From Hymenolepis diminuta (lineage: Eukaryota > Platyhelminthes > Cestoda > Cyclophyllidea > Hymenolepididae): a stretch of DNA of 64,000 nucleotides. The DNA lies in NCBI GenBank assembly GCA_900708905.1, contig CAADRB010000010.1:1300199-1364198 (forward strand). Reading direction: 5' to 3'. Under the pieces are notes generated by a model, which made no database searches, was not told the origin of the DNA, and saw only the letters and a program-made list of their open reading frames with translations. Shown here one piece after another: positions 2,664 through 61,877 of this stretch. The first letter of the stretch is position 1; each line of letters begins with the position of its first letter. The position numbers and the translations under genes are program-made.

Positions 2664-2673
2664 ACTGTATTAT

Positions 2674-3670: not shown

Positions 3671-4067
3671 CAACAAAATTAGAATCAAAGTTTAGACGAT
3701 ATTTCTTTTAACACTTGGTTTTTCTATCGTATAGTATTTAATAATAAATATTAGATGGCAATAAATTATAGTATAATATATTGTATAATATTCAATTTTC
3801 TCATAAAAAATATTGATTAGTCCAATCCGATATGATATTAGTAGTCCCTCTTGTATATTAAAGCCAAAAATATTGTATTTACAATATTATACTCGAATAC
3901 CTGATAACGTGTGCAATCACAGTTGAAAATGCAGTAAAAGTATAAGCAGAGAAGGTTAAATGGAATATATTGCAGATGGGCAAATATTTATCTTCCATCT
4001 TCAAATACTATCTTCTGGAAATCTTGTTAAAGCATGCATAATTGATGTCACACTCATCCTCAGTTAA

Positions 4068-16767: not shown

Positions 16768-17150
16768 TATTGAGTAATCATCCCAGTCACTAAGGCAAAT
16801 GCGCACATATGAGCATATCCGCCTACTCATGAGGAGAGGAAGATTGGTCCCCTCACCCCGAAACGTCTGCTGTCTCGCACCAACAGAGGGAACTCAAAGC
16901 AAATTTGAAGTAGTTACTATGGGAGAGGGGGAATGGAGAAAGGATGTGCCTAACCGTACGCATTTCTATTTGGAGAGAAGGTGGGAGGGCGGAACTATTG
17001 GGGAATCATTATAGGGAAAGGATGAGACAGGAAGACACAGACCCATGTGACAAACAGAATTCACGCTCGTTTTGTCTGTTTGAGCAAATGTTGGGCCAGA
17101 GAAACTCGTGTATAAACGTTTTCATAATTGTGTTGGCTTCGTAACTAGAG
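16768..17150 (+). repeat. Repeat block A, copy 2
   Basis: Matches 36372-36760 over its length: GCGCAC-TAT-GCA, CCCCGAAACGTCTGC, GGGAACTCAAAGC, TTTGAGCA, and TGTGTTGGC-TCGTAA at the end. It lies 3.4 kb upstream of gene 2, with blocks E and F between, whereas other genes have block A 1.1-1.3 kb upstream. Confidence 0.7.
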
Positions 17151-31781: not shown

Positions 31782-31995
31782 TTAGCTGGTGAGCGAACAT
31801 CGCCGTCGGTAAGGTAAAAGACACATGAGTACATGTGTCCTTTCCCTAAACTGCTGCTTATCAGTACCTACAGAGGAAGTCAATGAGTGCTTATAGTAGA
31901 TGCTATGTCTGAAACGTAGAAAAGCGCCTAATTATAGCCACTTTAGGCCAACAACTACGAAAACGAAGGGTGACTAGAGCTAATGAACTTTAATT
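31782..31995 (+). repeat. Repeat block A, partial copy 5
   Basis: AGGTAAAAGACACATGAGTACAT, CTGCTTATCAGTACCTACAG and CACTTTAGGCCAACAACTA match the other A copies, but the last third is missing. It is 1.1 kb upstream of the gene 3 promoter, the usual position. Confidence 0.65.
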
Positions 31996-33208: not shown

Positions 33209-34533
33209 ATCAGGTTGCAACAGAAGTTCTGTACAATTTTTGAGCTATGTGCTTAGGGCACGATTACCTCAATTTAACTTGTTCATGTTGTATGCTTATC
33301 TATGGTAACTAATGAAATATTATTTCTTCTTTCAGATTGTGTGATAATCATCGTTATTAATAGCTATCTCTAGCCCTAATGTACACTCCAAATAAAGACC
33401 ATATCAGGCATATTTAACTGTTTGAATTTCATCAAGGAAACTCGGCAAGCTCTCTTTGAGCGAACACACTGAAAGACACTTCTGGAAATGAGGTTGTGAA
33501 TGAAAAGACTTGCAGAAGGTGGTTTTCACCCTCACCTTCCAAAAAGGATGACTTCAGTCTGAAAGACGAACCGAGAGCAGGATGCTCTAAAAATCTCAAT
33601 TCTGAGCAATTGCAAGTTGCCATTGGTGAAAATCCAACTTACATTACTAGAGAACTGAGCAAAACCTCTCACCTACGCCGCCACAGGACCATATATAGGG
33701 AGATGAAAAGACTTGGCTAGGAAAGTCTCAAAGGCTGAGAAATGGGCCCTCCCCCCTTCCCCACACGATTTGTCAGAAATCAACAAGCAACAATGTGTGG
33801 CCTGTTGTGCTTCACTGTGTTCTCGTAAGCTTCAGGTACCTTTTTTACACCGATTCACAATTCACAGCAACGGGAAGTGGCGATCCTTTATAACGATGTT
33901 AAGCACAAGAGAAAATGGCTCAGTCAAGACAGTGGTTTAAAGCCAATTCCACAACCGAGACAATTCGGGATTGGACCCAAAAAAATTCACTTGTGTGCAT
34001 GGTGGGATTTGAAGGAATTGTTTATTATGAACTAATGGATGACAATCAAATAATAACATCTGAAGTTTGCTGTCGGTAGCTAACTCATTTAAAAGCAGTT
34101 GACGGCAGGAAAACAGCCTTCTTTGATCAATCGAAAAGGAGTGATTTTGCACTGTGACAATGCCAGACCCCACACTTCAGGAGCAACCAAAAATCTCCTT
34201 GAAGAATTTGGCTGGGAAGTCATGCACGTTCCACCCACCATGTTCTCTCGATCTTGCACCAACCGATTTTCATCTTTTCAGGAGCTTAGAGAATCATTTA
34301 ATGGGAGAAAGGTTTACTTCAAAAGGGGGGGTGGAAATGAAGCTGGTTTCTATTTTTGAGTCTAAACTGACTAAATCCAATGAAGAAGGAAAGAGAAAGC
34401 TTATGGCAAGATGGGAAGACGTAATTAATGAAAATGGCGACTGTGTTGAACACTAAATAAATATATCTTTGACAAAATTTTCACCTTAATTAAAAATTTA
34501 AAAATTGGATAAAACTTCTGTTACATGGTGATA
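33209..34533 (+). mobile_element. mariner-type DNA transposon, inactive (copy 1)
   Basis: About 1.3 kb, the usual length of a mariner element, with diverged terminal inverted repeats: CAGGTTG-CAACAGAAGTTCTGTA at the left end and the complement of CATG-TAACAGAAGTTTTATCC at the right. Transposase pieces appear in order but in different frames: a helix-turn-helix region (33496-33718, E-K-CRRWFSP and SHLRRHRTIYREMKRLG), the PHDLSEINKQQ signature (33773 on), ILHCDNARPHTS with the second catalytic Asp (34156-34158), and SLDLAPTDFHLF with the third (34265-34267). The two Asp codons are 109 nt apart against 105 for DD34D, with a frame change between them. The segment between PHDL and CDN is shortened and lacks an intact first-Asp region. 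No functional transposase can be made. It interrupts the space between two block A copies. Confidence 0.88.
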
Positions 34534-34539
34534 TATACG

Positions 34540-36365
34540 TTATCACGAAAGCAGTGGGTACAAATCTTTAATCAGTATTATCCAACTGAAGCGTTTGAAA
34601 ACAGTTCAAGCGAACGCGCAAAAGTAAAAATGAAATGATATCGAAACGAATTAAACAAACATTGTTCAATGGAAATTTAAGAAGTTTTTCTGGAGTCCTT
34701 TATTAATTTACCTTTCCTTACATTTCTTAATGTCTTACTTCGTCGGGCTTTGGAGAAAAAGATGGATTGAATAGATAGGACCGAGCAACTTAATTACTTA
34801 ATTGATCAATAAGCGGTGGACATTGGGAGATGGGAAGGAGAAATGGTCAATATTCTAGGGGATGAATCATGACATTTGAACTTTGGAACATAAAGTCGTG
34901 AATTCTCATTAGGTGGATATTATACAATCCAAAATCCACAGGTGTTTGCCGCTGCCGATGCTTTATTTATTTACTTATTTTTCAATATTTTCAATATTTT
35001 TTAGTTTCCATTCTTTTAGTTCTAATTAGACAGAAAACCCACTGCTCCTTTAATACGGTAATTCATAGTAATAGCGATCACTTGTGGGGAGTATACATGC
35101 AGACAGGTGAATGTGCACCAAGTTCGAAAAAAACAAATTTTTAGGCCTCTCGTTAATTTAAAATTTATTAAAACACAGATTGTAAGCTTTCAAGACTTCT
35201 AAAGCAACTAATAACTATAACATCTCTCTAGAGAGAGTATTCCTCGACGCATTTGTTAGGGGATTTGTGAAATATGTAGCTATTCGCTAAAGGCTTTTGA
35301 ATATTCTATTGATTGGCGTGCATAGGATTGTAATAAGTTGGATTGAGATAAAGGTGAAGAGAAACAAATTGGATAAAAATTCAGGATATATCCGTAAAGT
35401 CTCCAATGTATCGATTAGAATCAACACCAGGATGAGATTTTCAGAATATGATTTCAGACTGCCTTTTGAGTGAAATGTCTATGGCAAATGTGACAAGTGA
35501 AAGGCTTTAAATCCATGTGGGTTATGGCATGTTTCAAAAGTTTTAGTAGAACGTACTTCTTAACAGATATATACATAAATGACATCGAAAAGCTCCGCCA
35601 GCCAACTCCGTATGAAACGTCAGCTTCAATTTGGAAGAAAGTGAAACATTAAAGCATCGATTACGAGAAAATTATTAGGAGCACTCGGTAGAGTTGTCGA
35701 TTCTGTTTCCCAAATTCCCAAAAATTGGATTTGTTGGCTGTGCTGTTTAATGCTCACCTTCCGTCTATCAGTTAAACGCAATTGTTTGTATGGTATGTAT
35801 TCCTGTGAAACATTTTTAATTTCATATGTTCAATCACCTTTAGTTCTTATTTGAAATAAATCAAGTGGCGTTTGAAAAGTTTGCCTGCTGTTATTTATTC
35901 ATTCTAGAAAATGGGTAAACTTTTAGCAAAGCTTATTTGCAAATAGTAGCTATACCACACATTTCATTAAAAAAAGTTTCAGAATGTAATTTGTGTGCCG
36001 ACTGTAAAGATCTCTGATGTTATTAAATCTTTCACAAAAAAATTTCCTCCAGGTGTCTGTTTAACTTTTCGTTGTATGATTCCGCTTATGCAATAGTACA
36101 TATATGGACAATAACAGTTATCGTGCCGTAATGAAGTCATGATAGAAACTCTGATTAGGATAGTAAGTGACGTTTCGTGTTGTTTATAAAATACTGAAAT
36201 ACTGGACTATTCAAACCTGCAAAATTTTAAAGATAGAGGGATTTATCACATTTGAGGAAGATAATAAGTTTTCGTTACATTATACAAGCCCATCAATTAC
36301 ACCACATTGTTACACTAATACACTTCTCTGTAACTGTGAAAATTAGAAGAAACAGGCAAATATCC
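34540..36365. other. Intergenic, nothing recognised
   Basis: AT-rich DNA between the mariner element and block A. No supported gene. A short segment at about 35460-35530 (on the minus strand) loosely resembles finger-like Cys/His spacing, but too little is left to call. Confidence 0.35.
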
Positions 36366-36371
36366 TTGTCT

Positions 36372-36760
36372 AACTAGTGAGTAAGCATGGTGGTTGTTAA
36401 GGCAAAAGGCGCACCTATAATTGCACTGCATGCCATAAGGAGTGAGAAAGAGCAATGTCTTCCCCCGAAAATGCCTCCGTCTGGTACCTCCGGAGAGAAC
36501 TCAAGGCGCATTTAGAACAGTTGCTATGACTGAGGGTGGGTGCTAGAAGAGATGGCTAACTGTGCTCACTTTAGGCCAGCTATAGTAGCTAGTGGAGAGG
36601 AGGAAGATGGGCGGATTAATGTGCTTGAGTTGTGAGGGTGGGGTAGAAGGAAAGCCTGGCCTCCTGTCATTATTGCTTGTTTAAGCAGGACCGAGGTCTA
36701 AGACGCTCAAGTACAAACGTGTTCTTCGTTGTGTTGGCCTGGTAAGTTTTGACTGTATGG
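36372..36760 (+). repeat. Repeat block A, copy 6 (fullest)
   Basis: The most complete A copy. In order: GTGAGTAAGCATGG, TTAAGGCAAAAGGCGCACC, a CCCCCGAAAATGCC-CCG-CTGG-ACCTCCG segment, GAACTCAAGGCGCATTTAGA, TGCTCACTTTAGGCCAGC, CTTGTTTAAGCAGG and GTTCTTCGTTGTGTTGGCC. The complement of these parts runs in reverse order at 47640-48005 and 59020-59395. Confidence 0.75.
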
Positions 36761-37059
36761 CTCTAAAAGCTATTTACTAAATTACCAATGTCTTAAATTA
36801 TTTTTCTGTGAATAATTGGAGAAATTGAATGTCCGCGAAACCTGTCTTAGGTGGACCACTCTACTCCCGAAATCGAGTGATTGACGATGACCAAATAACA
36901 GAATAATATGAAACTGACGTCTTTATAAAGAACATTTTCTAGCAAATATGCATTTAATCCATATTAAAAGTCGTCAAAGGCTATATCGTAGCGAAAATCT
37001 CGAAATAAAACTGTCAACTGATCAGGATTCATAGAACTTCCGGACTGGTCTTCTTTAAG

Positions 37060-46169: not shown

Positions 46170-47630
46170 AGTTTTTTTAAAATTTTTTTGCTTTTTTCGT
46201 TATTTAAGGTTTTGAGGGAGTTATGCACAGAAAATTAATAGTTCCAAAGGTTATAGGGAAGCAATTACACTTCTAATCGGTTTACCTTGATGATATTCAT
46301 TCGCATTTTCGTTTTTATATATTTCTAACTTCAAATCGCTTATAATTTTTATAGTGATGGGCGAAAGAATTTATCTCTGAGGCTATATTACTGTATGTTA
46401 TTCCTCACTGATAAACAAAATGCACAGAACCATTAATTGATCTGCACTAAGTGATGAGAGGGGTAAAAGGGCGATAATATATTTGGATATATTTGTTTAG
46501 ACTCGCGCAAGCCATTAGAAATCACACTCGTTTTAAACCCACCTCCAAGAATTTCTACAGCTTTGAACAAGGTAAACACCGACTTCCACCAGAAAACGTG
46601 CCAATGATTCACCAACATTTTTTGAATGGAAATTAATGTTTCATACCATTTTTAGCGGGAAGGTGTTATTTAAAGAGATTAATAATTCATGACCTTCAAT
46701 ATGCCTCCTTTAGAAGAATAGAAAATTTTATATTTTTATTGTAAATGTACTATGAGTGGCCTTTATTAATAGAGCGGTAACTCATTACAATTACTACTAT
46801 AATGAGTTGTGGTCTTTTAAATATGTCGGATCTAGTCTCATCTACTAGCTTTTAGTCGTAAAAAGATATTAAGAAAATCGGATGGCATGATTGACCATGA
46901 AATTATATCAAATGGTCATCGAGCCCCAGATAAAATGGGCTTAAAGTTATTCAAGACTGGACCACAATTAAATACGGCATCACAAAATAAACTCTCTTTT
47001 TTGAAAATATGGACTATTCAGTGCTTTTAAATTCAAGCAAAGACTTCAGGTTATTTCACAACCCTCCTATTTTTGTTCCCTCCTCCCCCCATATTATTTC
47101 TTATTCGACTCTCTTATTGCTTCACTTTTTCAATTTCTTTCCGATAATTAAAACTTGCAAAAGATTTCTTGCTTTGACAAGGACGATAAAGTAACAGTAA
47201 AGAAAAAGACAGATGTAAATTAATGTTGAAGAGCTTATACTAGTTGAAAGCCATCAGGTCAAGAGATGAGTACTAATTTTGTGAAAGTTGGTATCCAGAG
47301 GGATTTTGGATCAACGATGATGTTGGTGACTTTAAGTAGGAGATATTGAATGGGTTGAAAAACAACGAATGATTCTGTCTTCTCTATTACAGCTCATATT
47401 TTCACCGTCACAACGATCAAGCCACATCGAATGGAGAAAATTTCTCAAATTAATGATGTTAACATCATGGTTTTGTTGCCAGGTCGTAGACGATTATAGT
47501 AACTCAGAAATTAGTATAGATTCCAACTTAAACCACTTCATTTTAGTTACAATTAAAGCATACTTTGAAGCATCGCATTCTAAAGAAACATGGCTACAGC
47601 TTAAGAGTATATGAGTCTTTCAGAGTCGAT
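46170..47630. other. Intergenic, nothing recognised
   Basis: AT-rich DNA between blocks D' and A'. Open frames of 61-81 codons have no recognisable content. A stretch at 46440-46620 resembles 58180-58320 (both include GATAATATATT, ATATTTGTTT and GATTCACCAA), so a further diverged repeat follows block D on this arm. Confidence 0.4.
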
Positions 47631-47639
47631 GTGCTGATT

Positions 47640-48005
47640 CATACACTTAAATAACCAGGAGCATGTTCGTACTTATCCTATGTCCCGCTCTTGCTTAAAC
47701 AGGCAAGACAACATAAATTCACACCCTTCCACTTCTATATAGCTCATGTTCGTTAACTCTACCCACCTTCCGTTGCTACAGATGCTGGGCTAGAGTGAGT
47801 ACAGCTAGGCGGTCTAACTCTCCCCCTCTCACGCACAGTAACTGCTCCTAAATACGCACTGAGTCCTCTCTGTAGGCACTAGACAACAGAGGTTTCGGGG
47901 AGAGGATATCAGTCTCCCTCACTAATACGTAGATGCTATGTTGCTCACACGTGTGCTTTTCGCCTTAGCAACTGTGAAGTTTGTGAAATAGCTAACAGAG
48001 GATGA
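47640..48005 (-). repeat. Repeat block A, inverted copy 7
   Basis: CTCTTGCTTAAACAGGCAAG, GTTAACTCTACCCACCTTC, CTCTGTAGGCACTAGACAAC, GTTTCGGGGAGAGGATAT and CGCCTTAGCAACTG. It lies 1.0 kb upstream of the gene 4 promoter in the same orientation relative to the gene as on the left arm. Confidence 0.8.
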
Positions 48006-48920
48006 GAATTGACATATTTTATACATGCTTGAACAAATTTCACGATGCATGATGGCAGGAGTTCTTCCTGTATGTATACAGACATTTATTATTTCTCAGA
48101 GACTCAAAAGTGGGTTTCTCTCTTGCTTTTAAGTATAAGAATGGACATTATTACCTTGGTAGTCCCATTTAATTATCACTTTTGCAATTAGTAACATAAT
48201 TTTCTGTAAATTCATCTTAAATTTTGCACATTCTCGTTCATTCATGTTTGAATAATCAAAATGAAATGTAGTGACTATTCTGACATGCGATTAAAAATTT
48301 CACTTATAAGAATTAACGGCAATATACATGATAAAATGGATAGTTTTCACTTTACTGACATTTAATATGAAAATAATTGACATTTATTACGCCAAGAGGG
48401 TTAATAGGATCTTGGTAAAAGGGCAAAAACTGACAGCAACTTCAGCTCTGATATATTATAGAATACAAACTTGAGAGATTGATTTTGAGAAGTGTAAAAT
48501 TGTGGGTACATTGAAGGTGCATAATTTCAATGACCTTAAATATGAAAATAATTAAAAATATTTTCCTTAGAAAATTAAACCACTATCTCTGACGAAAAAT
48601 GCACGCTAATTAAACAAACAGAAGTATTAAACTCAACATTAAAAAGCTTTACGGGTGATAATTTATCACAATGTCAGTTTAGTTCAGTTTTTCCAAATCT
48701 CGAACACAATAGATCACCTCCCCTCCCCCCTTCCACTCCATATTAGCATAAATGGACAGCGTATAACTCAAATCGGCATAAACTACATCAGTATTAAAAA
48801 CAAACTTCCAGTATTTTCGAAGGAATCAGAACTACTGTTGCATACCTCTAGCACGGTATTCGGACAGACAGAGAAACGTGTATCAAGGACCAATCATATT
48901 GAGGAAAGAATCCTGCACGT

Positions 48921-49058
48921 CCATTGGCTATTCCTTCTCGCTTCCGTGCGTCTGTGCCGCCGTCCTAGGCACGAGGAGCCAATATCAGGCTTTAAAAACT
49001 CATAGTCTGTTTCCTGATTGGAACAAAGTGGGATAAACGTTTTAAGGTAAATATATAA
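48921..49058 (+). promoter_or_regulatory. Promoter of zinc-finger gene 4
   Basis: CCATTGG (48921-48927), GTGCGTCTGTG (48946-48956), GCCAAT (48978-48983), GATTGG (49016-49021), GGATAAACGTTTT (49031-49043) and an ATATATAA TATA box (49051-49058). From CCATTGG to GGATAAA is 110 bp and to the TATA box 130 bp. Transcription should start near 49080. Confidence 0.82.
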
Positions 49059-49108
49059 GTAGGAAACATTTACTCTGAAGTCATTCATCGGTATTGACAT
49101 CAACTTTC

Positions 49109-49189
49109 GTAAGGTATTGCCTAAATACTTCGATGGCCTTAGCAGTTCTTAATAAAAAAGTTTTATTGTGCTTTAATTTTCGATTGTAG
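49109..49189 (+). other. 5' UTR intron of zinc-finger gene 4 (81 bp)
   Basis: Donor CTTTC|GTAAGG (GT at 49109-49110) and acceptor TTCGATTGTAG (AG at 49188-49189). Exon 2 then has 12 bases before the ATG. The first exon has no ATG, so the intron is untranslated. The intron does not align with that of gene 5. Confidence 0.78.
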
Positions 49190-49201: not shown

Positions 49202-50221
49202 ATGAACATCAACGAACCACAGGACATGTCTATGAGAAGCAGCGCATCGCCGACCTTATCGAATTCACCAACAATGCAACAGTCACCAACAATCGCAGTA
49301 CAAAATGCATTATCAACGGACACAATAACACAAATGTTCTTGCAATTGATGCAACAGTTTCAACATCAAATGTTTCAACCACAGGAAACAAAATCCACCT
49401 CTTTGCCTGACAACAGAGAACTAGAGCGTATCATACGAAAAACAATTCTTGATCATCTGACAAACAAAAACTCCAAAATAATAATTCATGGAGAGTTGAA
49501 AATCACTGTTGATTCTGACGCTCCTGTCACTGTGAAGATCAATACACCTCTGGGTACATCTTCCAAACGGAAGTCCTACACTCCTGTTCGAATCCTCCCG
49601 GTTGTGCCTCCCTCACCAGATTACACGAGCACGGATTCGGGAGTACTGGACCTCTCCTGCTCAGGCTCAGTTCATTCAAATGAATCCTCACCAATCACAC
49701 CTCTGAAGCCAGACTTTCCAAGCATGCTGCACATGCAGCATGGAAACCATGATTCCCCTGGCAAAATGAAGTCGGCGTCGAAGAGGAGATTCACCGGAGG
49801 TCGTCGAAATTTCCCCTGCAATCAGTGCAACGAGATGGAGTTTCATTCCCTTCAGCAATTGGAAGAGCACACCATGCAGACTCATGGCAGTTATCGCTGT
49901 CATGTCTGCAGTCGCACCTTCACCCAACGTTCCAATCTCCAACGTCATGCTCTCAAGCATGTGGGTTTCAAGCCATTCCGATGTGGTGTTTGTCTGCAGG
50001 GCTATTATCGCAAGGATCACCTGATGAGGCACATGGAGGTGAATCACCCTACTGTCAATCCGCTTGAGAACATTCAAGTTTTCCTCACTTCCTCACAGAG
50101 TCTAGATTATCTGAGTACTAATCAATCTACAGGCTGCAGTTCCCCCCTTCATGGTTTGGTTAATCCTGAGCAGCCAACATGCAACGACCACGTTGAACAG
50201 CAGCAATGTCCTCTGAATTGA
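49202..50221 (+). CDS. C2H2 zinc-finger protein, probable transcriptional repressor (family member 4)
   Basis: A 339-residue protein. PQDMS at 6-10 and VLDLS at 148-152 resemble CtBP-binding PxDLS motifs. Residues 40-62 are Q/M-rich and probably helical. A conserved domain of unknown function spans 66-131 and ends SKRKSYTPVRI. A Ser/Pro-rich stretch (136-170) precedes a basic SKRRFTGGRR segment (193-202), a possible nuclear localisation signal. Three fingers follow: C206/C209/H223/H228, C233/C236/H249/H253 and C261/C264/H277/H282. The presumed DNA contacts of finger 2 are Q, S, N, R and those of finger 3 are R, D, H, R. The tail (283-339) is polar and Q-rich. The start is set by the paralogue alignment and by the acceptor site just upstream. 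From codon 3 to 2 bp past the stop, the gene is base-for-base identical to gene 5, while all flanking sequence differs. The coding sequence is more GC-rich than that of genes 2 and 3. I do not recognise a named orthologue. Confidence 0.94.
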   Translation: MNINEPQDMSMRSSASPTLSNSPTMQQSPTIAVQNALSTDTITQMFLQLMQQFQHQMFQPQETKSTSLPDNRELERIIRKTILDHLTNKNSKIIIHGELKITVDSDAPVTVKINTPLGTSSKRKSYTPVRILPVVPPSPDYTSTDSGVLDLSCSGSVHSNESSPITPLKPDFPSMLHMQHGNHDSPGKMKSASKRRFTGGRRNFPCNQCNEMEFHSLQQLEEHTMQTHGSYRCHVCSRTFTQRSNLQRHALKHVGFKPFRCGVCLQGYYRKDHLMRHMEVNHPTVNPLENIQVFLTSSQSLDYLSTNQSTGCSSPLHGLVNPEQPTCNDHVEQQQCPLN

Positions 50222-50379
50222 AAAGTTGTGATATGTCATGTCCTTGCGGCATATACATTAACTGACTCAGAAATGGGAATGACTCCAGATGAAGTTAGGA
50301 AAGGTCATCGGAACCAGCCAACTTGATCAGCTCTGTTGGACCTTTTTAAATTGACTTTTCTGATCTATTTTTATATTAT

Positions 50380-50385
50380 ATTAAA
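50380..50385 (+). terminator. Possible poly(A) signal of gene 4
   Basis: ATTAAA, a common variant signal, 159 nt after the stop. No canonical AATAAA is present in the first 200 nt. Confidence 0.35.
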
Positions 50386-50682
50386 ATAGACCTGTAAATA
50401 TAACAAATGATCTCTTTAATTTCTCCATAATGGCTGATTATTTCACCGGAGAAGTAAAGATAAATAATTTCACTAATTATGGGATGGGAGTTAGAGTGGG
50501 TGGGCACAGTTATTGGCATGAAAATTATTTTTTAGGTACTGGGTGTGGAATTGGCAGTTATCAAATTGTTCAGAACTAACGTTTAAAGTTATTCTTATGG
50601 TACTTTTTTAGGATCCACTTCTTCACATTTCATATCAAATTTTTATTATTATTATTTCATATAATTTATGCCTAACAAATAA

Positions 50683-51950
50683 TACCCGGTTGAAATAGGA
50701 GTTCTGTCCATTTTTTTATTTTAATTAAGGTGAAAATTTTGTCAAAGATATATTTATTTAGTGTTCAACACAGTCGCCATTTTCATTAATTACGTCTTCC
50801 CATCTTGCCATAAGCTTTCTCTTTCCTTCTTCATTGGATTTAGTCAGTTTAGACTCAAAAATAGAAACCAGCTTCATTTCCACCCCCCCTTTTGAAGTAA
50901 ACCTTTCTCCCATTAAATGATTCTCTAAGCTCCTGAAAAGATGAAAATCGGTTGGTGCAAGATCGAGAGAACATGGTGGGTGGAACGTGCATGACTTCCC
51001 AGCCAAATTCTTCAAGGAGATTTTTGGTTGCTCCTGAAGTGTGGGGTCTGGCATTGTCACAGTGCAAAATCACTCCTTTTCGATTGATCAAAGAAGGCTG
51101 TTTTCCTGCCGTCAACTGCTTTTAAATGAGTTAGCTACCGACAGCAAACTTCAGATGTTATTATTTGATTGTCATCCATTAGTTCATAATAAACAATTCC
51201 TTCAAATCCCACCATGCACACAAGTGAATTTTTTTGGGTCCAATCCCGAATTGTCTCGGTTGTGGAATTGGCTTTAAACCACTGTCTTGACTGAGCCATT
51301 TTCTCTTGTGCTTAACATCGTTATAAAGGATCGCCACTTCCCGTTGCTGTGAATTGTGAATCGGTGTAAAAAAGGTACCTGAAGCTTACGAGAACACAGT
51401 GAAGCACAACAGGCCACACATTGTTGCTTGTTGATTTCTGACAAATCGTGTGGGGAAGGGGGGAGGGCCCATTTCTCAGCCTTTGAGACTTTCCTAGCCA
51501 AGTCTTTTCATCTCCCTATATATGGTCCTGTGGCGGCGTAGGTGAGAGGTTTTGCTCAGTTCTCTAGTAATGTAAGTTGGATTTTCATTAATGGCAACTT
51601 GCAATTGCTCAGAATTGAGTTTTTTAGAGCATCCTGCTCTCGGTTCGTCTTTCAGACTGAAGTCATCCTTTTTGGAAGGTGAGGGTGAAAACCACCTTCT
51701 GCAAGTCTTTTCATTCACAACCTCATTTCCAGAAGTGTCTTTCAGTGTGTTCGCTCAAAGAGAGCTTGCCGAGTTTCCTTGATGAAATTCAAACAGTTAA
51801 ATATGCCTGATATGGTCTTTATTTGGAGTGTACATTAGGGCTAGAGATAGCTATTAATAACGATGATTATCACACAATCTGAAAGAAGAAATAATATTTC
51901 ATTAGTTACCATAGATAAGCATACAACATTAACAAGCTAAATTGAAGTTT
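50683..51950 (-). mobile_element. mariner-type DNA transposon, inactive (copy 2)
   Basis: An inverted, nearly identical copy of the element at 33209-34533. Its outer left end (TA then CCCGGTTGAAATAGGAGTTCT) is the 3' terminal inverted repeat. At the other end, similarity stops near 51950 and the terminal repeat is missing, so the element is truncated or was overwritten. The frame breaks are the same as in copy 1, including the shortened middle and the frame change between the CDN and TDF catalytic Asp codons. Inside, I count only three base differences in about 1.15 kb (at 51591-51592 and 51618 or adjacent bases). The terminal 50 bp at the left end differs at more than ten positions. It lies 460 bp downstream of gene 4. 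Confidence 0.88.
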
Positions 51951-51959
51951 GATATTGAT

Positions 51960-52610
51960 TATTTACTCAATCTGTAATTAGAATTATACGTTTCCTCGGG
52001 TCTTCATACCTACCAGCTTTTTTATTCATAGGAGGAAGCGAAGAGAAAGTATTGCAAGCCTTGTGGAAGCCTTTGATTATCTTGGTCCGTTGAAATTTAT
52101 CATGAAATTACCAAACAGAGTCGGCATTTGCTTCTTTTCTATGTGTCCTCAAACGTACGATATGTTAAGTCCAAGTTTTAGTCCTGAACTAGATTGTCAA
52201 ATTAATAAATTGCGATTAATTGTGATAAGCTTAGTGATTAGCGTTCATTTCTCCACTCTGGAAAGATATGATGAGCTAAAATATTGGAGACTATTTTTCC
52301 TTTCAAAATGTACAAACAGACGCATTCATTCAACATTACCAAATCATCTGGCTTATTTCCTGGTCCTGATATTTCCAAAAGAAATATTAAACAGAAGCTT
52401 CTCCATTTCCGTAAATGCTTCTATTTAAGTTTCACCTTCTTTCGGTGCTGTTTAGAAAACAGTCTAATTCTCTTAATGGGGATATTATATTATTTAAATT
52501 TAAGAAAAGATATATACAATCTGAAGAAGAAAGAATAAAGGATGATCAAATTATTTAAAGTTGTCCTATTTGTAAAATCTTATAATTGTACTTGCTTGAC
52601 CATTTAAAAA
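51960..52610. other. Intergenic with an unassigned open frame
   Basis: A 121-codon open frame (52063-52428) overlaps another of 84 codons. Neither has a recognisable domain or a second copy. I do not call a gene here. Confidence 0.25.
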
Positions 52611-52619
52611 GAACACTCT

Positions 52620-52900
52620 CTAGTAACTAGGCAGACTTTTACCTACAACCCGTAGAATAGCCGTTGTTTGTGTACTTCTCAAACAAAGCGAGCACTCTAT
52701 AGGTGCCTCAGAAATTATTCTTGTTGCTATGTGCCTAATATGGTATTAGCATTGGAATAGAATGGACTCCGGACTGGACTACGTACCCTGTTCCAGCTGC
52801 TACTGCAAATTCCCACCCCTCCCCTCTTTACCCTAGCAACTTATTAACATTGAGTTAGAGCACTCAACGCACAATGTTAAGAGTAGGAGGGGGTCACATA
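52620..52900 (+). repeat. Repeat block G, copy 1
   Basis: Aligns with 63160-63360: AGGTGC-TCAGA-ATTA-TCTTGTTGC, a CCCACC-CCTC segment, TTAACATTGA-TTAG-GCAC, and CTCA-CACAA-GTTAA. Each copy lies downstream of a plus-strand zinc-finger gene. Confidence 0.65.
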
Positions 52901-52909
52901 TATGAATGA

Positions 52910-55510
52910 AGCAAGACACGTGAGGTACGTTACTATGGCCTCTGATAACTGTCCGTGTTTACTCAGTTTGCCGCTATTCTAAATGAAAATAATGCTAACG
53001 AGATTTCTAGCTCTGTTAAGAAAGCATACTTACTATTGGCCAGGGATTGCGTTAAACAATGATGCATTGACCATTAGGCGAATAAATCACAAATCACTCT
53101 TTTAATATATTACATTTTATTTCATTTAGATATGTGTTGGTGGTGCAGCTTTACCTGTTCTCATCAGACAAGTTAGACGTCATGAATTTAAATACCAACG
53201 GGAGATATCTTGGAAACCGAATGACCAACTAACCTGGTTAGGTCTAATTATTAGAGTGGTGATAGAATTTCATTTTCCTATTGGAAATCGTGATGATATT
53301 CCTTTTGCGGCTTTTCACGTATACCCCATCGAAAATCATCTGAACTAACTGCAACCATCACGTCATCTATCTGCGTTTTGGTGATTAGACGCCCGACCAC
53401 TTATGTGTTTCAACTCAGAAATCTCCTACTGCTCGACCGAAGCAAATTTGATGACTCAAGCATACATACTCATGGTAAGGTGAGAAACCTGACATTTTCC
53501 AATACTTATAAATGGATGTTTGAAATTATTCATCCATACAAATTTTTATTTAGGCAAAGAAATGCACTTCTTTAATGATTTCACGTGAGTATCCAATGCC
53601 AGATTTTTGGGATCATATAGTGAAATTACTACTGTTGCAAATGAATTTAAAGCTTAAACGAATATCTTTTGTCCTTGAGGTCATTCACAAGATTAGACCA
53701 AGAATATCAAATTTAAAATCGAAAGAGTTAGTTTTAGACGCCTTTGAATTCGCAATCCCAGAGTCTCTATATTCTGGGTTCTGAGAATACATCAGAATCT
53801 GAAATTATTGCCAAAACATTCTAAACCTGATATATTTTAGGAAAATTATCAGAGAGAATTGTTTATATTTGAATAGCATGCGATATCACTACGGGATCCA
53901 TCATTCAGACATGTACAAAATGAAGAATCTGACATAAAAGCAGTACAAACAGATGTTTCAACACAATTCTGTTAGGAATCGAGTAATAAGAGGTGTTTAC
54001 ATTAATTTCCTCCACTCTACCTTGCCAACTTTTCGCAATAAATAAGTTGAAGGAGGGGTGGAAAAAAGAGTTGTCTGACCCCTTTTACCACCGCACCTCA
54101 TTCAAAACGAAACTTCGTCGGAATATCTTAGAGACTAGCAGCATGTGAAATAGCTGTTTATTCAACGTAGTCTGATAAAGAATGGTAGAACCAATTTAAT
54201 TTTAACTAAGATTCCTTAAATAATTTATGAAAAACCGCAATAAGAACGCAAATTCATTCCTAGTCTTCTGCTCCAATTTTTCGGCTGATAAAAGCAATTT
54301 GGAAACCTATGCAAATTCAGATCAGATTGAAATATGGCTTTGTTTAATTAATTGTGATTTGAGATAATAATTCACAAAAGTTCGGCTACCAATTACCTTG
54401 TTCACGGAAACGTAATTTTAATCGTTGTCCTGACCAGTTCATTTAAGCCACCTTACCTTTCTTCGCTGAAGTCCTTCCACACAGCTACAAACCAACCGAA
54501 AAAAACAGAAATTCGGAATCCTGCCCAAGTTCGAAGGATTGTATTTTTTTGTATCCCTTTGTAAATAGGATATGCTTGCTCGTGTTAAATTTACAGATTA
54601 CTTTACCATTCACATCACATATGAGATTCTCTGAACAACTGTTACCAAATCTCAATTTCGGGGTTAAGCGCGAAATTTAGGGCACATTAATCAACTTTGT
54701 CAGAATTCAGAAAATAACGCGACTTCCGTTGAAACTTGATCGATACCTCAAAAATTGGATAGTGAATTTGAAGTAATAAAAAATTTTGAGAACATTGAAA
54801 GGAGTCTTTCTATAGCAGACGAATCTAATAAGATAAAAATCGGGAAAGGGTCATCAATAATGAATGAATACAAGACTTTACCGCATTTGAATTCGGGAAC
54901 ATTGAAATGCCTATATTTTTAAAAGAGGGTGCCCACTTGATGAGGTTTTAAGGTTCGATCTTCACAATTTGAGTTTCAGAATAACGGGTAAGATTATGTC
55001 CATTAGGTTCAAAGTTCGTTAACCGGTTGATCTATTTCCGTGGTCGGTCATACGAGCTCAATACAGAACAGCTTACTCAAGGTGAACGCTTCAAAAAGGG
55101 TAACTATTATTACAATCTCGTAAGGTTCTCATTTCTTTAGCAAATTCAAGTATGGATATTTAGAAATTTATGCTGACTTGGGTATTTAATTTACTACATT
55201 TATAAAGCTATTTAACTCATCCTAAATTGCTAATAATGATTCGCTTATTAACGTCAAACTAATGTGTCTTTACTACAAAAACATTATTCATGCCTCCATT
55301 TATTTTAAAGTGCAGTCAATTACACATAGATAAACTTAGATATACACACATTGGCTCTTTCAGTTGGACATATTATCAGTTCAATTTTCAAGTTCGATGC
55401 GGACTTTCTTTTTTAGATCGTTATTATATTTTTTATTATTATCACAACATTAATAAAAATTTCAATCTTTAGTTGGGGGAAGGAGCTGAAATCGACTAGC
55501 AGAAAGTTCA
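52910..55510. other. Intergenic, nothing recognised
   Basis: AT-rich DNA between blocks G and H. Open frames of 60-69 codons only, with no recognisable content. Confidence 0.4.
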
Positions 55511-55519
55511 ACAAACTTT

Positions 55520-55760
55520 GAAGGGAAGGGATCAAATAGATACGTAGAGCAACGTCAAGGTATCGAAAGTTTTAATTCATTTGATTTTGGAATCGGGTTG
55601 TACAATATGTACTAAGTAGGTAGTTCAAGTTGTAAAATCCAAGTTTTATGACCCGTTCCCTAGATTGCAACAGAGTTTTTTCTATTATGTTCAGTGCTTA
55701 TTGATCGGCTTTTCAACCAGTAAGAACTGGTCTTATTGCCTCAATTCACTTTTTTTCCAA
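55520..55760 (+). repeat. Repeat block H, copy 2
   Basis: Aligns with 24410-24660 and 63600-63870; see the first copy. Shared with 63600 are TTAATTCATTTGATTTT and the C-AAA-TC-AA-T run after it. Confidence 0.6.
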
Positions 55761-55769
55761 TAGATGAGA

Positions 55770-57630
55770 GTCCAAATGAATTTTCATGGTATTCAACAGC
55801 TTAAAAATTTAACGTAGTGAAAATAAGGCAGCTGAAAATTGTAAATTAGCAGAACTCCTCGATCTGTGTTAACTTAGGATGAGCTAATCACAATGAGTTT
55901 CCTAATATATAAAATATTCTAAGATTGTTAGATTCAAAGAAATAGTACCGTTCGAGCAAAATTGCAGCCTTATTTTATATTTTTATATTTCAGACTGAAT
56001 AAACAAACTGTTAGCCACCTTCAGTTATGCCTTCAAAATGAATCTTATTCGATACGATTATTTTATTCGACAGAACCAACAATTGCCCGTACATGCATAA
56101 ACTCCTTCCCACCCTTAACTTTCGAATCTAATCACAAATAATTTTTAAGTTCTTTTTAAAGTAAGGTAGCAGGTTCATTCTCTATATGTCCTCCCTCTCA
56201 CATACCCACCCAAACACAAACTTGTGTCATATCACGAGATTTTCGGTCAGGCATCTGTTGCAATTGTTTCGAGAAGTCTCCAACTCAAGTCATAGCTACC
56301 GAAAACATTGTGACTCAAATAATACCAGTGATAAAAAGAGGAGTTCTTCTCTGATAAGGATTAAAGGCGTTTTCTTGAAATTGTTCTGAGGTTGCCTCAC
56401 CCCCTTCTCATTTTCATGGATGCTCAAACGCCCCTTAACAGGGCTAAAATACGTGTAGATCCTTGGATTATGCAGCTGCCGAGCAACAGCCAAAAACGCC
56501 TATTTTGTGTACGCGCTTGTGAGTAGGATGCGAAAACGATGAATAAACACAGTAAAATAATTTTCCTTTTTATCTGGGAGTAATTATAATTAACTTTCCA
56601 TTTATTAATTGAAATTGCCCAGTTATTTCCCAGTATCATTTATCTTTGAAGTATCAAATGTTATGATGGTTTAAATTTGTCATAAAAATGTAGTTTTACA
56701 CACAGCCAGATCGTTTCGAATTTCCACTGACGTATTATAGCAATTTTTCTTCTCACTAATGCAGCTACAGAGCAAACGTCTACAATCACCCTAATTTAGT
56801 AAAATTCGTTTTACTCAAAGTAGGTACGAAGAAAATTCTGTAGATCAATGTTTGCTCAAATCTTATTATATTGCCCTATCTGTACGTACATTTATTTTGT
56901 TTTGAATCAAGTAAATGTCACAATTTAGCACCCATCCGCATTCTCCATTATGCTTATTTCTCATTTTATAAACGATTCTTAGTTTGAGTCAGTGATATCT
57001 CACCTAAGTAAGTTCCTATCCCCACTATGATCCATTTTTCCAGAGGAACTATAAGTCTTAATCGGATATTGCGGCCACTTGAATCTATGTATATTTAAAT
57101 TGATTTCGTTATGCCTGCTCAAAAACTGTAATAAACACCAAAAGTGCCATTGAAAATGAAAATTAAAACACTTTATTGAAAGCATTTAAATCTGTTCTGT
57201 TTCTCTCTGGACATCAAATCTCCATCTCTATTAATTCTTACGTCTTTTACAGTATTAACAAGCCTAAAAAAGAAAATATTTCAAAGTTAGGAGAATTTGA
57301 TTAACCAAGATGGAAGGCTCAATCCGTCACTCAAAATTAAAAAATTAAAGAAACCTCTTTGATGTAAGAGCTTTCTAATACACACTGATTTCTGATTGAT
57401 TGCTTATTATTTAGAAACAATCGCTGACATTTGGTACCAATAATTTATCACTTCTATTGTTATCTAATTAAATCAGTGAAATAGGAATGGAAATTATGGT
57501 ATTTTCAAGTTAAAGTTTACAGTAGTTTTGCTAGTTCACTCAATCTTTGGTGAATTTCCTCTAAAAATGTAATGCCTCCACATCAGTGGGAAGAGTCCGC
57601 TTTATCATTAATTAATATATTTCATCAGAG
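55770..57630. other. Intergenic, nothing recognised
   Basis: AT-rich DNA with short open frames on both strands (60-71 codons) that I cannot assign. Confidence 0.4.
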
Positions 57631-57639
57631 TTCCTCATA

Positions 57640-57880
57640 AATAGGCGCACACAAAACACTCGGATTTATTCGTTTACAACACTCATGTCAATCCTATTGG
57701 AAGTAGTATTGGGACACCTGCATTAAATGAATTAGGAGGTTTAAGATTCCTTTATCTCCCCTCGCCGATCACGTTTTGACAGCCAAACTAAACAATCCAG
57801 ATTTGTTTTTAGCGTGCCGAACTCTGCACTCCACTCCTCTACCCCCTTTCTCAAAATGTATTCATAGAAGCGAAGAGAGG
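57640..57880 (-). repeat. Repeat block D, inverted copy 7
   Basis: CATGTCAATCCTATTGGAAG, AATTAGGAGGTTTAAGATTC, TTGACAGCCAAACTAAACAA and ATCCAGATTTGTTTTTAGCG. It precedes block A' and gene 5 in the same order as at gene 4. Confidence 0.75.
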
Positions 57881-58775
57881 GAACATAAATTGATGTCAGT
57901 TAAATTTGTCGGTGATCTTACTTCGAAAGGACTTTGTATAAGATGTTTGAGGAGTTAAGATAATGTTAACGCTTAAGTAAAAAGACTTCAAGACGAAAAT
58001 GGATTTATATTGATTTTTACGAAAGATATTCATTTGTGTTTACGTTAGGCCATATCACGCAAGCCGGTCCTAATTTGTCTGGTAGAAGAATATAGAAAGA
58101 ATAGCAAACTCACACCATTTAAGAGCAACAAACAACACCCTGAGAACCGTTACCTGTCCCGCATTAAACAATGAGAAGTGTGAGGAGTGATAATATATTC
58201 AGAAATATTTGTTTGGACCCGAATTGGTTATAAGATATCATTTTGGTTTGCCAACCATTCACTACGATTTTCTGCAGCTTTGATGAATGAGTGTGTTAAT
58301 GATTCACCAATTTTTCTAACAAGGGAAATGACGCCTTCTACCTGACGAAAAAAGAAAGTTGCATAAAATAAACTACTTTTAGAAGAATCGAAGAAAAGTT
58401 ATATTTTTTTACTTATTATTTATATTGCAAATTTTGTATGATTGATCCCTTTTAATACCATGGCAGTATAATAGAAAACTCAGGTTTAAAGCAAAGGTTT
58501 TACGCAATTGTCATAATCCATTCATATTTATGGGTGATTTTTTATCGATTTTTACCGGCACTATTTCATGTATGTCCACCCAAATATATTGGCAGATATG
58601 GAAAGTCATTTTTTTACAACTAATAATTTGCGGTTGATGATTACTAATCAAACTCTAATTAACTTACGTAGAGTAAATTATAAAATTATGTTATGAATAT
58701 TTTCACTTCACTTGAAGGTGATTTCTGCAGAGGCGAATTAAAGTGATCTTGGTTAGACAGATATTCTCTCCCCTA

Positions 58776-58786
58776 NNNNNNNNNNN
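58776..58786. other. Assembly gap
   Basis: Eleven N bases of unknown true length, between a TCTCTCCCCTA sequence and CCTCTTTCATC. Confidence 0.98.
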
Positions 58787-59019
58787 CCTCTTTCATCATG
58801 TTTTTACACTATCAATAGGAATAAAAAAGGAACATCTGTCGGTTAATTGAATGAATTAACTAAAAAATAAGCTTCCCTCATATCATTCTAAATTTAATTA
58901 AACACAATTTGTTGTTAGCATCAATGTATAATTTAAAAATTTGATCATTAAAGCGCCTTGGCCGAGGTCCAAGAGTTGATGAGGTTTTTAGAGACTGCGT
59001 TCGATCCACGCGATGAAAA

Positions 59020-59395
59020 CTTACCAAGCGAACATGAGGAACACGTTTGCACTTGAGAATCCCTGGCCTCGCTCCTGTTTAAACAGGCAAAATGACACAA
59101 GGCCATGTCCTCCTTCTACCCTTCCACATCGATGGCTCACACTCATTAGCCCCACCCACCTACTGACGCTACATGTGTTGGCCTAAGGTGAGCACAGATA
59201 GACAGCTTAGCTCTCCCCCTTTCAATCGTAGCAACTACTCTAAATGCGCATTGAATTTCCTCTGTAGGTACTAGGCGGCAGAAGTTTCGGGGAGAGAGTA
59301 TTTAGCCTCCCTCGCCCTACGTGTACGCTCCGTGTGCTCAAATGTGCGCCTTTCACCTTGGCAACTGAGATGCTTACTCACTAATTGACGAAGAA
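59020..59395 (-). repeat. Repeat block A, inverted copy 8
   Basis: CTCCTGTTTAAACAGGCAAA, TAGCCCCACCCACCT, TTGGCCTAAGGTGAGCACAG, CTCTGTAGGTACTAGGCGGC, GTTTCGGGGAGAGAGTAT and CACCTTGGCAACTGAGATGC. The closest partner is 47640-48005. It lies 1.05 kb upstream of the gene 5 promoter. Confidence 0.8.
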
Positions 59396-59399
59396 TTGT

Positions 59400-60400
59400 G
59401 AATTCTGACATTTAGTGCGCGCTTGAACAGCGTTTTACAGACGGAAGTGTATAATGAAGAAAGCCATTTGGGTGTCCTTGAGCAAATAATGTAATTAAAA
59501 ACATTATATACGCATGAGGGCGATATTACCACACCAACCTAATGAAAGAAATTATTATGTGGAAGGATTATCTAGTCACAATTTCTCAGAGATTTTGAGC
59601 TACTGTTTCCATTCTTTCTGTCAAAAATAAGCTTGAATACTGTGATATGGGTTCGACCCTCTGAATGAATAAATTCATTGTCTTTTAATAACAGCAAATT
59701 GGATTAAATTTACTCCCACTCCTTACTGCTTATTTAAAAATTAGTCCTAAGGCATTCATGCATTAAATAAGCAAAAGTTATAGTCCCTATATCTAATAAA
59801 ATTTTCAAGTATAGAAATGTCTACCAAAGCCTCTAATAAATGCAACATTAACGGTTTTCCTTAACTATTATAGTCCTAGAATTTAACACGCATTGATTAA
59901 AATGATTGATTAAACATTTAAATAAAATGTTAAGTTTATCAGTTTGCGGCACATACTTCTCCTGATGTCTTAACAGTTAGACAGTACAAAATTCCCATCG
60001 TCCGACGGTGGGCTAATCTTGAACAATTTGAAAAGACTTTTATCCTTGAAAAAAGAATAATGCCTTTTGGATGTATTATTGTTCTGTTTCGATCTGAATT
60101 TGATTTAACCTAGTATTATCAAGCAGATGCCCTGATTATAGAAGCAAAAGCTAGACTTCTGATATCATGACAGTGTCGCAAAGCTCATTTAATTTAAATA
60201 CATGGTAAGAAATTCCATCAGTTGAAATTAGTGCTTAACTTCTCTAATTTTTAACTTACTTAAGACAATAGCTTCCCAAATGAAATAAATGCATCATTTT
60301 TGAATGAAATTTCTACGATATAATAAAATCATCAAATTGTCTCATTGATTTAAATTCTAATTGGCACTATATATAACAGAATTTGGTCAGAATGTCACTT
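59400..60400. other. Intergenic, nothing recognised
   Basis: AT-rich DNA between block A' and the gene 5 promoter. Confidence 0.4.
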
Positions 60401-60443
60401 ATCTGCCATGGACCAATCAATTAGAAGTAACTTTCTTGCACGC

Positions 60444-60582
60444 CCATTGGTTATTCTTTCCCACCAGCGTGCGTCTGTCTCGCCATCTTAGACATACAGA
60501 GCCAATGCAATTTTCGTACCATATTTAACCCTGTATCTGATTGGAACAAAGTGGGAAAAGCGCTTTAAGGCAATTATATAAA
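60444..60582 (+). promoter_or_regulatory. Promoter of zinc-finger gene 5
   Basis: CCATTGG (60444-60450), GTGCGTCTGT (60469-60478), GCCAAT (60501-60506), GATTGG (60539-60544), GGAAAAGCGCTTT (60554-60566) and TATATAAA (60575-60582). The motif distances are 25, 32, 38 and 15 bp, identical to gene 4, while the bases between the motifs differ at many positions. Confidence 0.82.
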
Positions 60583-60631
60583 CAATCTAGATATTTCCTC
60601 TCAAGTCATACATTAACATCGGCCTCCACTT

Positions 60632-60713
60632 GTGAGTTCATGTTTGTTCTCTTTTATTATCCCACTAACAATTAATAACAAGAATATTCTAAAGTTAACA
60701 ATTGTTCTTGCAG
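60632..60713 (+). other. 5' UTR intron of zinc-finger gene 5 (82 bp)
   Basis: Donor CACTT|GTGAGT (60632-60637) and acceptor TTGTTCTTGCAG (AG at 60712-60713), followed by 8 bases and the ATG. The coding frame happens to stay open through the intron back to the GTG of the donor, which gives a false 369-codon frame. Confidence 0.8.
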
Positions 60714-60721
60714 ATATTACT

Positions 60722-61741
60722 ATGAATGACAACGAACCACAGGACATGTCTATGAGAAGCAGCGCATCGCCGACCTTATCGAATTCACCAACAATGCAAC
60801 AGTCACCAACAATCGCAGTACAAAATGCATTATCAACGGACACAATAACACAAATGTTCTTGCAATTGATGCAACAGTTTCAACATCAAATGTTTCAACC
60901 ACAGGAAACAAAATCCACCTCTTTGCCTGACAACAGAGAACTAGAGCGTATCATACGAAAAACAATTCTTGATCATCTGACAAACAAAAACTCCAAAATA
61001 ATAATTCATGGAGAGTTGAAAATCACTGTTGATTCTGACGCTCCTGTCACTGTGAAGATCAATACACCTCTGGGTACATCTTCCAAACGGAAGTCCTACA
61101 CTCCTGTTCGAATCCTCCCGGTTGTGCCTCCCTCACCAGATTACACGAGCACGGATTCGGGAGTACTGGACCTCTCCTGCTCAGGCTCAGTTCATTCAAA
61201 TGAATCCTCACCAATCACACCTCTGAAGCCAGACTTTCCAAGCATGCTGCACATGCAGCATGGAAACCATGATTCCCCTGGCAAAATGAAGTCGGCGTCG
61301 AAGAGGAGATTCACCGGAGGTCGTCGAAATTTCCCCTGCAATCAGTGCAACGAGATGGAGTTTCATTCCCTTCAGCAATTGGAAGAGCACACCATGCAGA
61401 CTCATGGCAGTTATCGCTGTCATGTCTGCAGTCGCACCTTCACCCAACGTTCCAATCTCCAACGTCATGCTCTCAAGCATGTGGGTTTCAAGCCATTCCG
61501 ATGTGGTGTTTGTCTGCAGGGCTATTATCGCAAGGATCACCTGATGAGGCACATGGAGGTGAATCACCCTACTGTCAATCCGCTTGAGAACATTCAAGTT
61601 TTCCTCACTTCCTCACAGAGTCTAGATTATCTGAGTACTAATCAATCTACAGGCTGCAGTTCCCCCCTTCATGGTTTGGTTAATCCTGAGCAGCCAACAT
61701 GCAACGACCACGTTGAACAGCAGCAATGTCCTCTGAATTGA
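60722..61741 (+). CDS. C2H2 zinc-finger protein, probable transcriptional repressor (family member 5)
   Basis: 339 residues, starting MNDNEPQDMS where gene 4 starts MNINEPQDMS. Otherwise the protein and every base of the coding sequence are identical to gene 4, 11,520 bp away in the same orientation with no insertion or deletion. Domains are as in gene 4: PQDMS 6-10, central domain 66-131, VLDLS 148-152, and fingers at 206-228, 233-253 and 261-282. The ATG at 60722 is chosen over the longer open frame that begins at 60632, because the extra 30 codons are the intron and their first codon is a GTG that forms the splice donor. The gene has its own promoter and its own diverged intron and 3' UTR, so it is not a simple recent tandem copy or a processed retrocopy. 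Probably a nuclear DNA-binding protein and, from the LDLS motif, a repressor (inference). Confidence 0.94.
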   Translation: MNDNEPQDMSMRSSASPTLSNSPTMQQSPTIAVQNALSTDTITQMFLQLMQQFQHQMFQPQETKSTSLPDNRELERIIRKTILDHLTNKNSKIIIHGELKITVDSDAPVTVKINTPLGTSSKRKSYTPVRILPVVPPSPDYTSTDSGVLDLSCSGSVHSNESSPITPLKPDFPSMLHMQHGNHDSPGKMKSASKRRFTGGRRNFPCNQCNEMEFHSLQQLEEHTMQTHGSYRCHVCSRTFTQRSNLQRHALKHVGFKPFRCGVCLQGYYRKDHLMRHMEVNHPTVNPLENIQVFLTSSQSLDYLSTNQSTGCSSPLHGLVNPEQPTCNDHVEQQQCPLN

Positions 61742-61877
61742 AATTTTCGCTGTGTGTTATGATATCAACTAATTGTCCAAGCTCAGCAAATTTACGGACA
61801 GTGGAAACCAATTCAGGTGTATATGCAACATGTCGACGAAACTAGTCAATGTGGTCAGTTCTACGTGATGAGTTCAA

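Follow-up and report, generated by a model that had tools for sequence, protein, structure and literature searches.

Near-identical coding sequences between diverged flanks in two ZFP-1-type zinc-finger genes of the tapeworm Hymenolepis diminuta: a probable case of gene conversion

Two genes with one coding tract

The stretch of DNA analysed here (the window; 64,000 nucleotides, C10:1300199-1364198, C10 being contig CAADRB010000010.1 of assembly GCA_900708905.1) comes from the tapeworm Hymenolepis diminuta and contains two zinc-finger genes, g3 and g4, which stand in direct orientation 11.5 kb apart and whose protein-coding sequences (CDSs) are almost identical between diverged flanks. They are two of the five intact ZFP-1-type genes (g0-g4), each with three fingers, that form a cluster together with broken relatives; g0, at C10:1286309-1287283, lies outside the window. 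The features of the pair are as follows, in window positions.

49202 to 50221, plus strand: g3, single-exon CDS, 339 aa, three C2H2 fingers, assigned to the ZFP-1 family (open reading frame, ORF; Pfam zf-C2H2; QRSNLQR and RKDHLMR motifs)
60722 to 61741, plus strand: g4, CDS, 339 aa, its sole differences from g3 in codons 2-3, outside the tract (MND vs MNI)
49210 to 50223, plus strand: homogenised tract, g3 copy, exact, 1,014 bp
60730 to 61743, plus strand: homogenised tract, g4 copy, exact, 1,014 bp
48885 to 49060, plus strand: g3 promoter-like core, with four ATTGG/CCAAT boxes (48890, 48923, 48979, 49017) and TATATAA (49052), from an alignment of six upstream regions
60405 to 60585, plus strand: g4 promoter-like core, with four ATTGG/CCAAT boxes (60413, 60446, 60502, 60540) and TATATAA (60575), spaced as in g3
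49109 to 49189, plus strand: g3 predicted intron of the 5' untranslated region (UTR), GTAAGG...TTGTAG, 81 bp, its end 12 bp upstream of the ATG, read from the sequence
60632 to 60713, plus strand: g4 predicted 5' UTR intron, GTGAGT...CTTGCAG, 82 bp, its end 8 bp upstream of the ATG, read from the sequence

An earlier note on this DNA had described an identical block running from codon 3 to 2 bp past the stop codon in both genes, and an exact-tract search agrees. The intervals 49210-50223 and 60730-61743 form a maximal exact tract of 1,014 bp with no mismatch and no indel, and identity is lost immediately at either edge. The first base of the tract is the last of codon 3 (ATC in g3, GAC in g4), and the tract ends 2 bp past the TGA, so that in the assembly it coincides with the CDS. 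A search of the genome (170.6 Mb) with the tract gave two matches at 100%, the next match being at 74%. The CDSs of g3 and g4 are 99.7% identical, with a synonymous divergence (dS) of 0.004 and agreement at 153 of 153 four-fold sites, and the proteins are 99.7% identical; the nine other CDS pairs in the cluster are 68.5-73.2% identical with dS values of 0.97-1.82. Taken at face value, zero differences over 1,014 bp set a 95% upper bound of 0.3% on the divergence.

The identity extends into the least conserved parts of the gene. The N- and C-terminal ends of the ZFP-1 protein are fast-evolving (25/40 and 21/40 aa shared between g3 and its Rodentolepis nana relative), and at the gene ends the aligned runs between g3 and g0, g1 and g2 are all 10 nt or shorter, whereas 120 nt at either end match without exception between g3 and g4. 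The protein cluster P0001, which represents g3 and g4, has three members on two contigs, the longest of them 3,555,596 bp, and C10 measures 4,672,544 bp; P0001 therefore also occurs on a contig other than C10, and a second genome version holds the g3/g4 protein, in one or both copies.

Diverged flanks and the age of the pair

Outside the tract the two loci differ along their whole aligned length. In steps of 60 alignment columns (leaving out the two that straddle the tract edges and a last one-column step) identity ranges from 17/43 to 44/60 upstream and from 21/52 to 40/58 downstream, that is, 40-73%. Twenty random pairs of segments, used as a baseline, align at a mean of 46% with a range of 40-55%. 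The 400 bp downstream are 53.9% identical (206/382), no higher than the random range, and the 110 bp next to the ATG, where the predicted intron lies, reach 53% (56/105), also inside it. The promoters had been judged about 70% alike by eye, a value that fits only an upstream core (207 bp at 71%) and is too high for the upstream 330 bp as a whole (62.0%, 201/324). The downstream alignment stops at 50633, shortly before a mariner-like element that the 3' flank of g3 has and that of g4 lacks.

In the upstream alignment all five cluster genes share a promoter-like core and, right before the ATG, a predicted intron of the 5' UTR, and the conserved boxes suggest that the cores of g3 and g4 act as promoters. 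Farther out, 1.2-1.3 kb upstream of g3 (47541-48035) and g4 (58909-59429), there is an element of about 500 bp that is 64-65% alike between the two. Related pieces lie near 3956-4394, 16659-17144, 31844-31953 and 36269-36766, some at a like distance upstream of the broken paralogue and of g2 and others elsewhere, with no match in the fetched stretches of C2 and C104. This may be an old shared upstream element or a repeat.

The flank divergence of g3 and g4 equals that of the other paralogues. Over 302 ungapped columns of the upstream core g3-g4 is 60.6% identical, g1-g4 60.6% and g1-g2 59.9%, the ten pairs spanning 51-61%, and 449 of 2000 bootstraps put g3 and g4 closest together. Downstream, the nine pairs other than g3-g4 are 42-52% identical. 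In a tree built from 14 of 52 homologue hits, g0, g1 and g2 each join their own R. nana and Hymenolepis microstoma proteins with support of 100/100, and g3/g4 join the R. nana protein P0002; between R. nana and H. microstoma, the orthologues of these three genes (g0, g1, g2) show 81-86% identity. Since g0, g1 and g2 group with their own orthologues, duplications of similar flank divergence predate the species split, and since the upstream regions of g3 and g4 are as diverged as those of these older paralogues, the pair itself appears old and its CDSs homogenised. Judged by its flanks, it appears far older than zero differences in the CDS allow.

Two other readings were tried and rejected. A recent tandem duplication fails because the flanks drop to near-random identity at the tract edge, and a retrocopy because the promoter-like boxes typical of the family, and a predicted intron in the 5' UTR, are present at both loci.

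The ZFP-1 cluster

Beyond what the earlier note had seen, the locus includes three more intact paralogues and one broken copy, and other local repeats with long exact runs. The further ZFP-1-related features inside the window are these.

12115 to 13122, minus strand: g1, intact paralogue, 335 aa (ORF, Pfam)
29502 to 30521, minus strand: g2, intact paralogue, 339 aa (ORF, Pfam)
1797 to 2670, minus strand: broken paralogue, tblastn pieces in several frames, with one TAG and one TAA within one piece
35439 to 35662, minus strand: remnant of a related finger region, a weak tblastn match (E 5e-6 to 1e-4)

The proteins of the window match those of Hymenolepis and Rodentolepis tapeworms, and further ZFP-1 family groups lie on contigs C2 and C104. 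According to the available part of PMC5927768, the ZFP-1 family is specific to flatworms and has three C2H2 fingers, the second bearing QRSNLQR and the third RKDHLxR. QRSNLQR is present in g0-g4 and RKDHLxR in g0, g2, g3 and g4; g1 has RKDHLMK instead. Among the 52 homologue hits, which come from one search with a tapeworm query, 49 carry QRSNLQR together with RKDHLx followed by R or K, and all the named organisms among the 49 are flatworms, the others being unnamed. By these motifs g0-g4 are assigned to the flatworm ZFP-1 family. Of the four lineages compared, that of g3/g4 is the best conserved, with 81% identity between g3 and R. nana P0002 vs 67-72% for g0, g1 and g2.

The same excerpt reports that schistosome zfp-1 and zfp-1-1 are required for the specification of tegumental cells, zfp-1 perhaps more generally, and that planarian zfp-1 is required for the epidermal lineage (PMC5927768). 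Like g3 and g4, these genes encode three C2H2 fingers with QRSNLQR and RKDHLxR. The available text on them mentions no conversion; the hymenolepid genes form a multi-gene cluster encoding proteins of 324-339 aa.

Other exact repeats in the ZFP-1 loci

The contigs of this assembly were made from Illumina reads with ABySS and dnaasm, which use de Bruijn graphs, and were then linked with Nanopore reads; the part of PMC6890685 available gives an N50 of 75 kb for the short-read contigs, linking by mate pairs and Nanopore reads, and a gap-filling module. In a survey of self-alignments of at least 200 bp and at least 90% identity across the three ZFP-1 loci (164 kb of C10, 80 kb of C2 and 50 kb of C104, N included), seven were listed besides g3-g4. 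Five of the seven hold exact runs, of 7,854, 2,734, 1,407, 869 and 628 bp, and in these five the differences lie mostly near the ends, with the interior exact or nearly so. The remaining two are a 417 bp repeat on C104 with internal differences and a longest exact run of 218, and a repeat of 277 bp, too short to weigh. A control of 30 kb on C1 (6,710 bases N) gave no self-match at the same cut-off and is too small for comparing rates.

The longest repeat is a 7,854 bp inverted repeat, 100% identical, at C10:1245483-1253336 and 1259190-1267043, the inner ends of which are the edges of a 5,853-N gap. It may be a true palindrome, or the same contig may have been placed twice. Each of its arms contains a diverged ZFP-1-like open frame. 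On C2, positions 5741519-5744252 and 5747804-5750537 form an exact direct repeat of 2,734 bp near a ZFP-1-like match; a genome search gives two full copies, 6.3 kb apart, with unrelated flanks and a short diverged margin on one side. On C104, in the ZFP-1 group of that contig, 1671859-1673265 and 1677381-1678787 form an exact direct repeat of 1,407 bp, 5.5 kb apart, again with two full copies in the genome search and unrelated flanks, and with shorter near-identical pieces on C104. Within the window there are also a pair of mariner-like elements and a short assembly gap.

50691 to 51948, minus strand: mariner-like element, in the 3' flank of g3 but not of g4
33266 to 34525, plus strand: mariner-like element, matching the one at 50691-51948 at 98.8%, with exact interior runs of 869 and 309 bp and diverged ends
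58776 to 58786, no strand: assembly gap of 11 N, 1.9 kb upstream of the g4 ATG

The two mariner-like elements are 17 kb apart and have three internal differences, and the other 46 listed matches are 79-87% identical to them (40 of 712 candidates were scored). The pair is diverged at both ends, where recent transposition should give identical ends.

De Bruijn assemblers can merge graph bubbles between near-identical copies, an effect known as repeat collapse. Exact interiors with diverged ends fit such a collapse and fit real local copying or homogenisation as well. Even under collapse, the bases within one word length of unique flanks would be copy-specific, and on assumed word lengths 0 differences in 190 such bases bound the divergence of g3 and g4 at 1.6% or less, and 0 in 126 at 2.4% or less.

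Gene conversion and its alternatives

The most probable explanation of g3 and g4, in which we place good but not full confidence, is homology-limited ectopic gene conversion between two old ZFP-1 paralogues, each of which has kept its own flanks. This was also the interpretation of the earlier note, an old duplicate pair with the coding region overwritten by conversion, and the paralogue comparisons strengthen it as the best-supported reading. An old duplication within the hymenolepid ZFP-1 expansion would have left each copy with a promoter-like region, a predicted intron in the 5' UTR and a 3' UTR of its own. Repeated interlocus conversion would then have kept the two CDSs alike during the drift of the flanks, halting at the edges of the CDS where flanking homology is gone, and selection may perhaps have removed conversions that reached into copy-specific regulatory DNA. 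The outcome would be one protein served by two promoters. We infer conversion as the homogenising process, and recurrent conversion seems likelier than a single event because CDSs as diverged as those of the sister paralogues, with identity of about 70% and dS of about 1 or more, would serve poorly as templates for converting 1 kb.

The near-identity of the two genes and its sharp boundaries at the ends of the CDS are well supported, and because these boundaries fall at the fastest-evolving ends of the gene they argue that the homogenisation itself is real. The true identity is probably very high and need not be exactly 100%. The earlier note had warned of a polishing artefact; a caution of this kind proves apt in another form, given the short-read de Bruijn contigs and the exact cores of the other repeats.

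Several points weigh against this explanation. Many overlapping conversion tracts would be expected to leave a blurred tract edge, and none is seen. The long exact runs in five of the seven other repeats indicate that such identity recurs in these loci, and part of the identity seen in the assembled sequence of g3 and g4 may come from near-identical copies having been collapsed. A whole-genome DNA search with the 5' flank of g4 found nothing beyond itself except the flank of g3 (71%, 207 bp), and the 3' flanks of the two genes are, by a slight margin, the closest pair, so that the g3-g4 duplication may be somewhat younger than the others. Finally, the g3 and g4 proteins are 99.7% identical to each other against 81% to R. 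nana P0002, but a matched g3/g4-like pair in a second species would be only one of two readings of the protein cluster P0002. Its two members on one contig may be two R. nana copies, or one protein from R. nana and one from H. microstoma, since a slower-evolving H. microstoma orthologue could share one 90% cluster.

The alternative that survives best is an assembly artefact in which the assembler or gap filler overwrote a clearly different CDS of g4 with that of g3. We consider it unlikely. The construction of the assembly from short-read de Bruijn contigs with later linking and gap filling speaks for it, as do the 7,854 bp inverted repeat that ends exactly at both edges of an N gap on the same scaffold, the mariner pair that is nearly exact inside with diverged ends, and the 2,734 and 1,407 bp repeats that are exact despite unrelated flanks. 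However, both junctions between g3-like and g4-specific sequence fall at CDS ends and in frame. A misjoin by overlap requires at least one true k-mer identity inside each end, where g3 offers the unconverted paralogues only the short runs given above. No copy of intermediate identity is found among the matches listed for the genome, and some differences between repeat copies were retained by the assembler, namely the three inside the mariner pair and several in the 417 bp pair on C104.

A broader proposal takes such repeats at face value. The ZFP-1 clusters of the largely selfing H. diminuta would be hot spots of local ectopic homogenisation, in which g3/g4, the mariner pair and the exact repeats on C2 and C104 are all real products of conversion or template switching, with g3/g4 kept as one protein under two promoters. 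We offer it as speculation that is quite unlikely to hold as a whole.

It is very unlikely that the coding block of g3 was recently copied into the place of an unrelated older gene, or that a recent duplication later had its flanks replaced. Zero differences do indicate a recent event at face value, but the flanks of g4 are themselves of the ZFP-1 type in their promoter-like boxes, predicted 5' UTR intron and distance to the ATG, and to replace the CDS of an existing paralogue in register is, by definition, to convert it. The identical flanks that a recent tandem duplication should show are absent. Still less probable is a conversion templated by reverse-transcribed mRNA rather than by the DNA of the other gene; the tract does start 3' of the predicted intron, inside exon 2, yet it includes no 5' UTR and just 2 bp of 3' UTR, and a tract of this extent would equally be expected from homology-limited conversion on a DNA template. 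The idea that purifying selection alone, acting on the protein, keeps the CDSs alike deserves next to no credence, in spite of the conservation of the g3/g4 lineage, because the complete agreement at four-fold sites is beyond the reach of protein-level selection and the fast-evolving ends are identical too.

Relation to known systems

Gene conversion, the probable origin of the g3-g4 identity, is a known kind of event, here in ZFP-1 genes, and the copy may be less than exact. The closest counterpart is the pair of Drosophila amylase duplicates, Amy-p and Amy-d, in which concerted evolution is confined to the coding sequence with independent flanks (review PMC3924832, in the part available). 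As in g3 and g4, linked old duplicates have homogenised CDSs and separately evolving flanks; the amylase genes are palindromic and were compared across species, whereas g3 and g4 are direct repeats, encode a putative transcription factor and come from one assembly. The Drosophila Hsp70 pairs treated in the same excerpt (PMC3924832) resemble g3 and g4 as old linked duplicates under ectopic conversion. They differ in being palindromic, in encoding a strongly conserved heat-shock protein and in having been put to a cross-species test, whereas g3 and g4 are known from a single assembly.

For protein-coding genes of tapeworms gene conversion as such has already been claimed, in the antigen B family of Echinococcus (Haag et al. 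2004, as cited in the available parts of PMC4358968 and PMC3352830). That likeness is drawn from the title of the study only, and antigen B genes encode secreted lipoprotein antigens, not zinc-finger proteins. The tandem spliced-leader RNA (SL-RNA) genes of cestodes are clustered loci under concerted evolution (excerpt of PMC12582326), and among the terminal-repeat retrotransposons in miniature (TRIM elements) of taeniids four significant cases of conversion are given for Taenia solium and none for four other taeniids (excerpt of PMC4558846). Unlike g3 and g4, these are RNA genes or retroelements rather than protein-coding pairs. The literature on gene conversion in tapeworms and on concerted evolution in cestodes, in the portions available, makes no mention of conversion in ZFP-1 genes, and a literature search on false gene conversion in short-read assemblies of segmental duplications turned up no paper.

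If real, the g3/g4 pair would be a case of coding-only concerted evolution in a tapeworm, in a family of regulators tied to the flatworm skin, with one jointly evolving protein serving two promoters. It also indicates that identities between paralogues in this assembly call for caution at the level of reads. The earlier suggestion of a sex-linked or ampliconic region does not fit this species, since H. diminuta is hermaphroditic and selfing is apparently common (PMC10941210, part available).

Further observations

Rfam and tRNA (transfer RNA) scans found nothing. The GC content at third codon positions (GC3) is highest in g3/g4 among the five cluster genes, with 161/340 in g3 vs 128/325 in g0, 118/336 in g1 and 129/340 in g2 (Fisher p 0.042, 0.0014 and 0.016). 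At four-fold sites the GC content is 0.405 in g3, 0.392 in g2, 0.340 in g0 and 0.295 in g1, and because g3 hardly differs from g2 there, GC-biased conversion in g3/g4 is only weakly hinted at. The proteins of g3 and g4 contain PQDMS and VLDLS, which we take to resemble the CtBP-binding PxDLS motifs.

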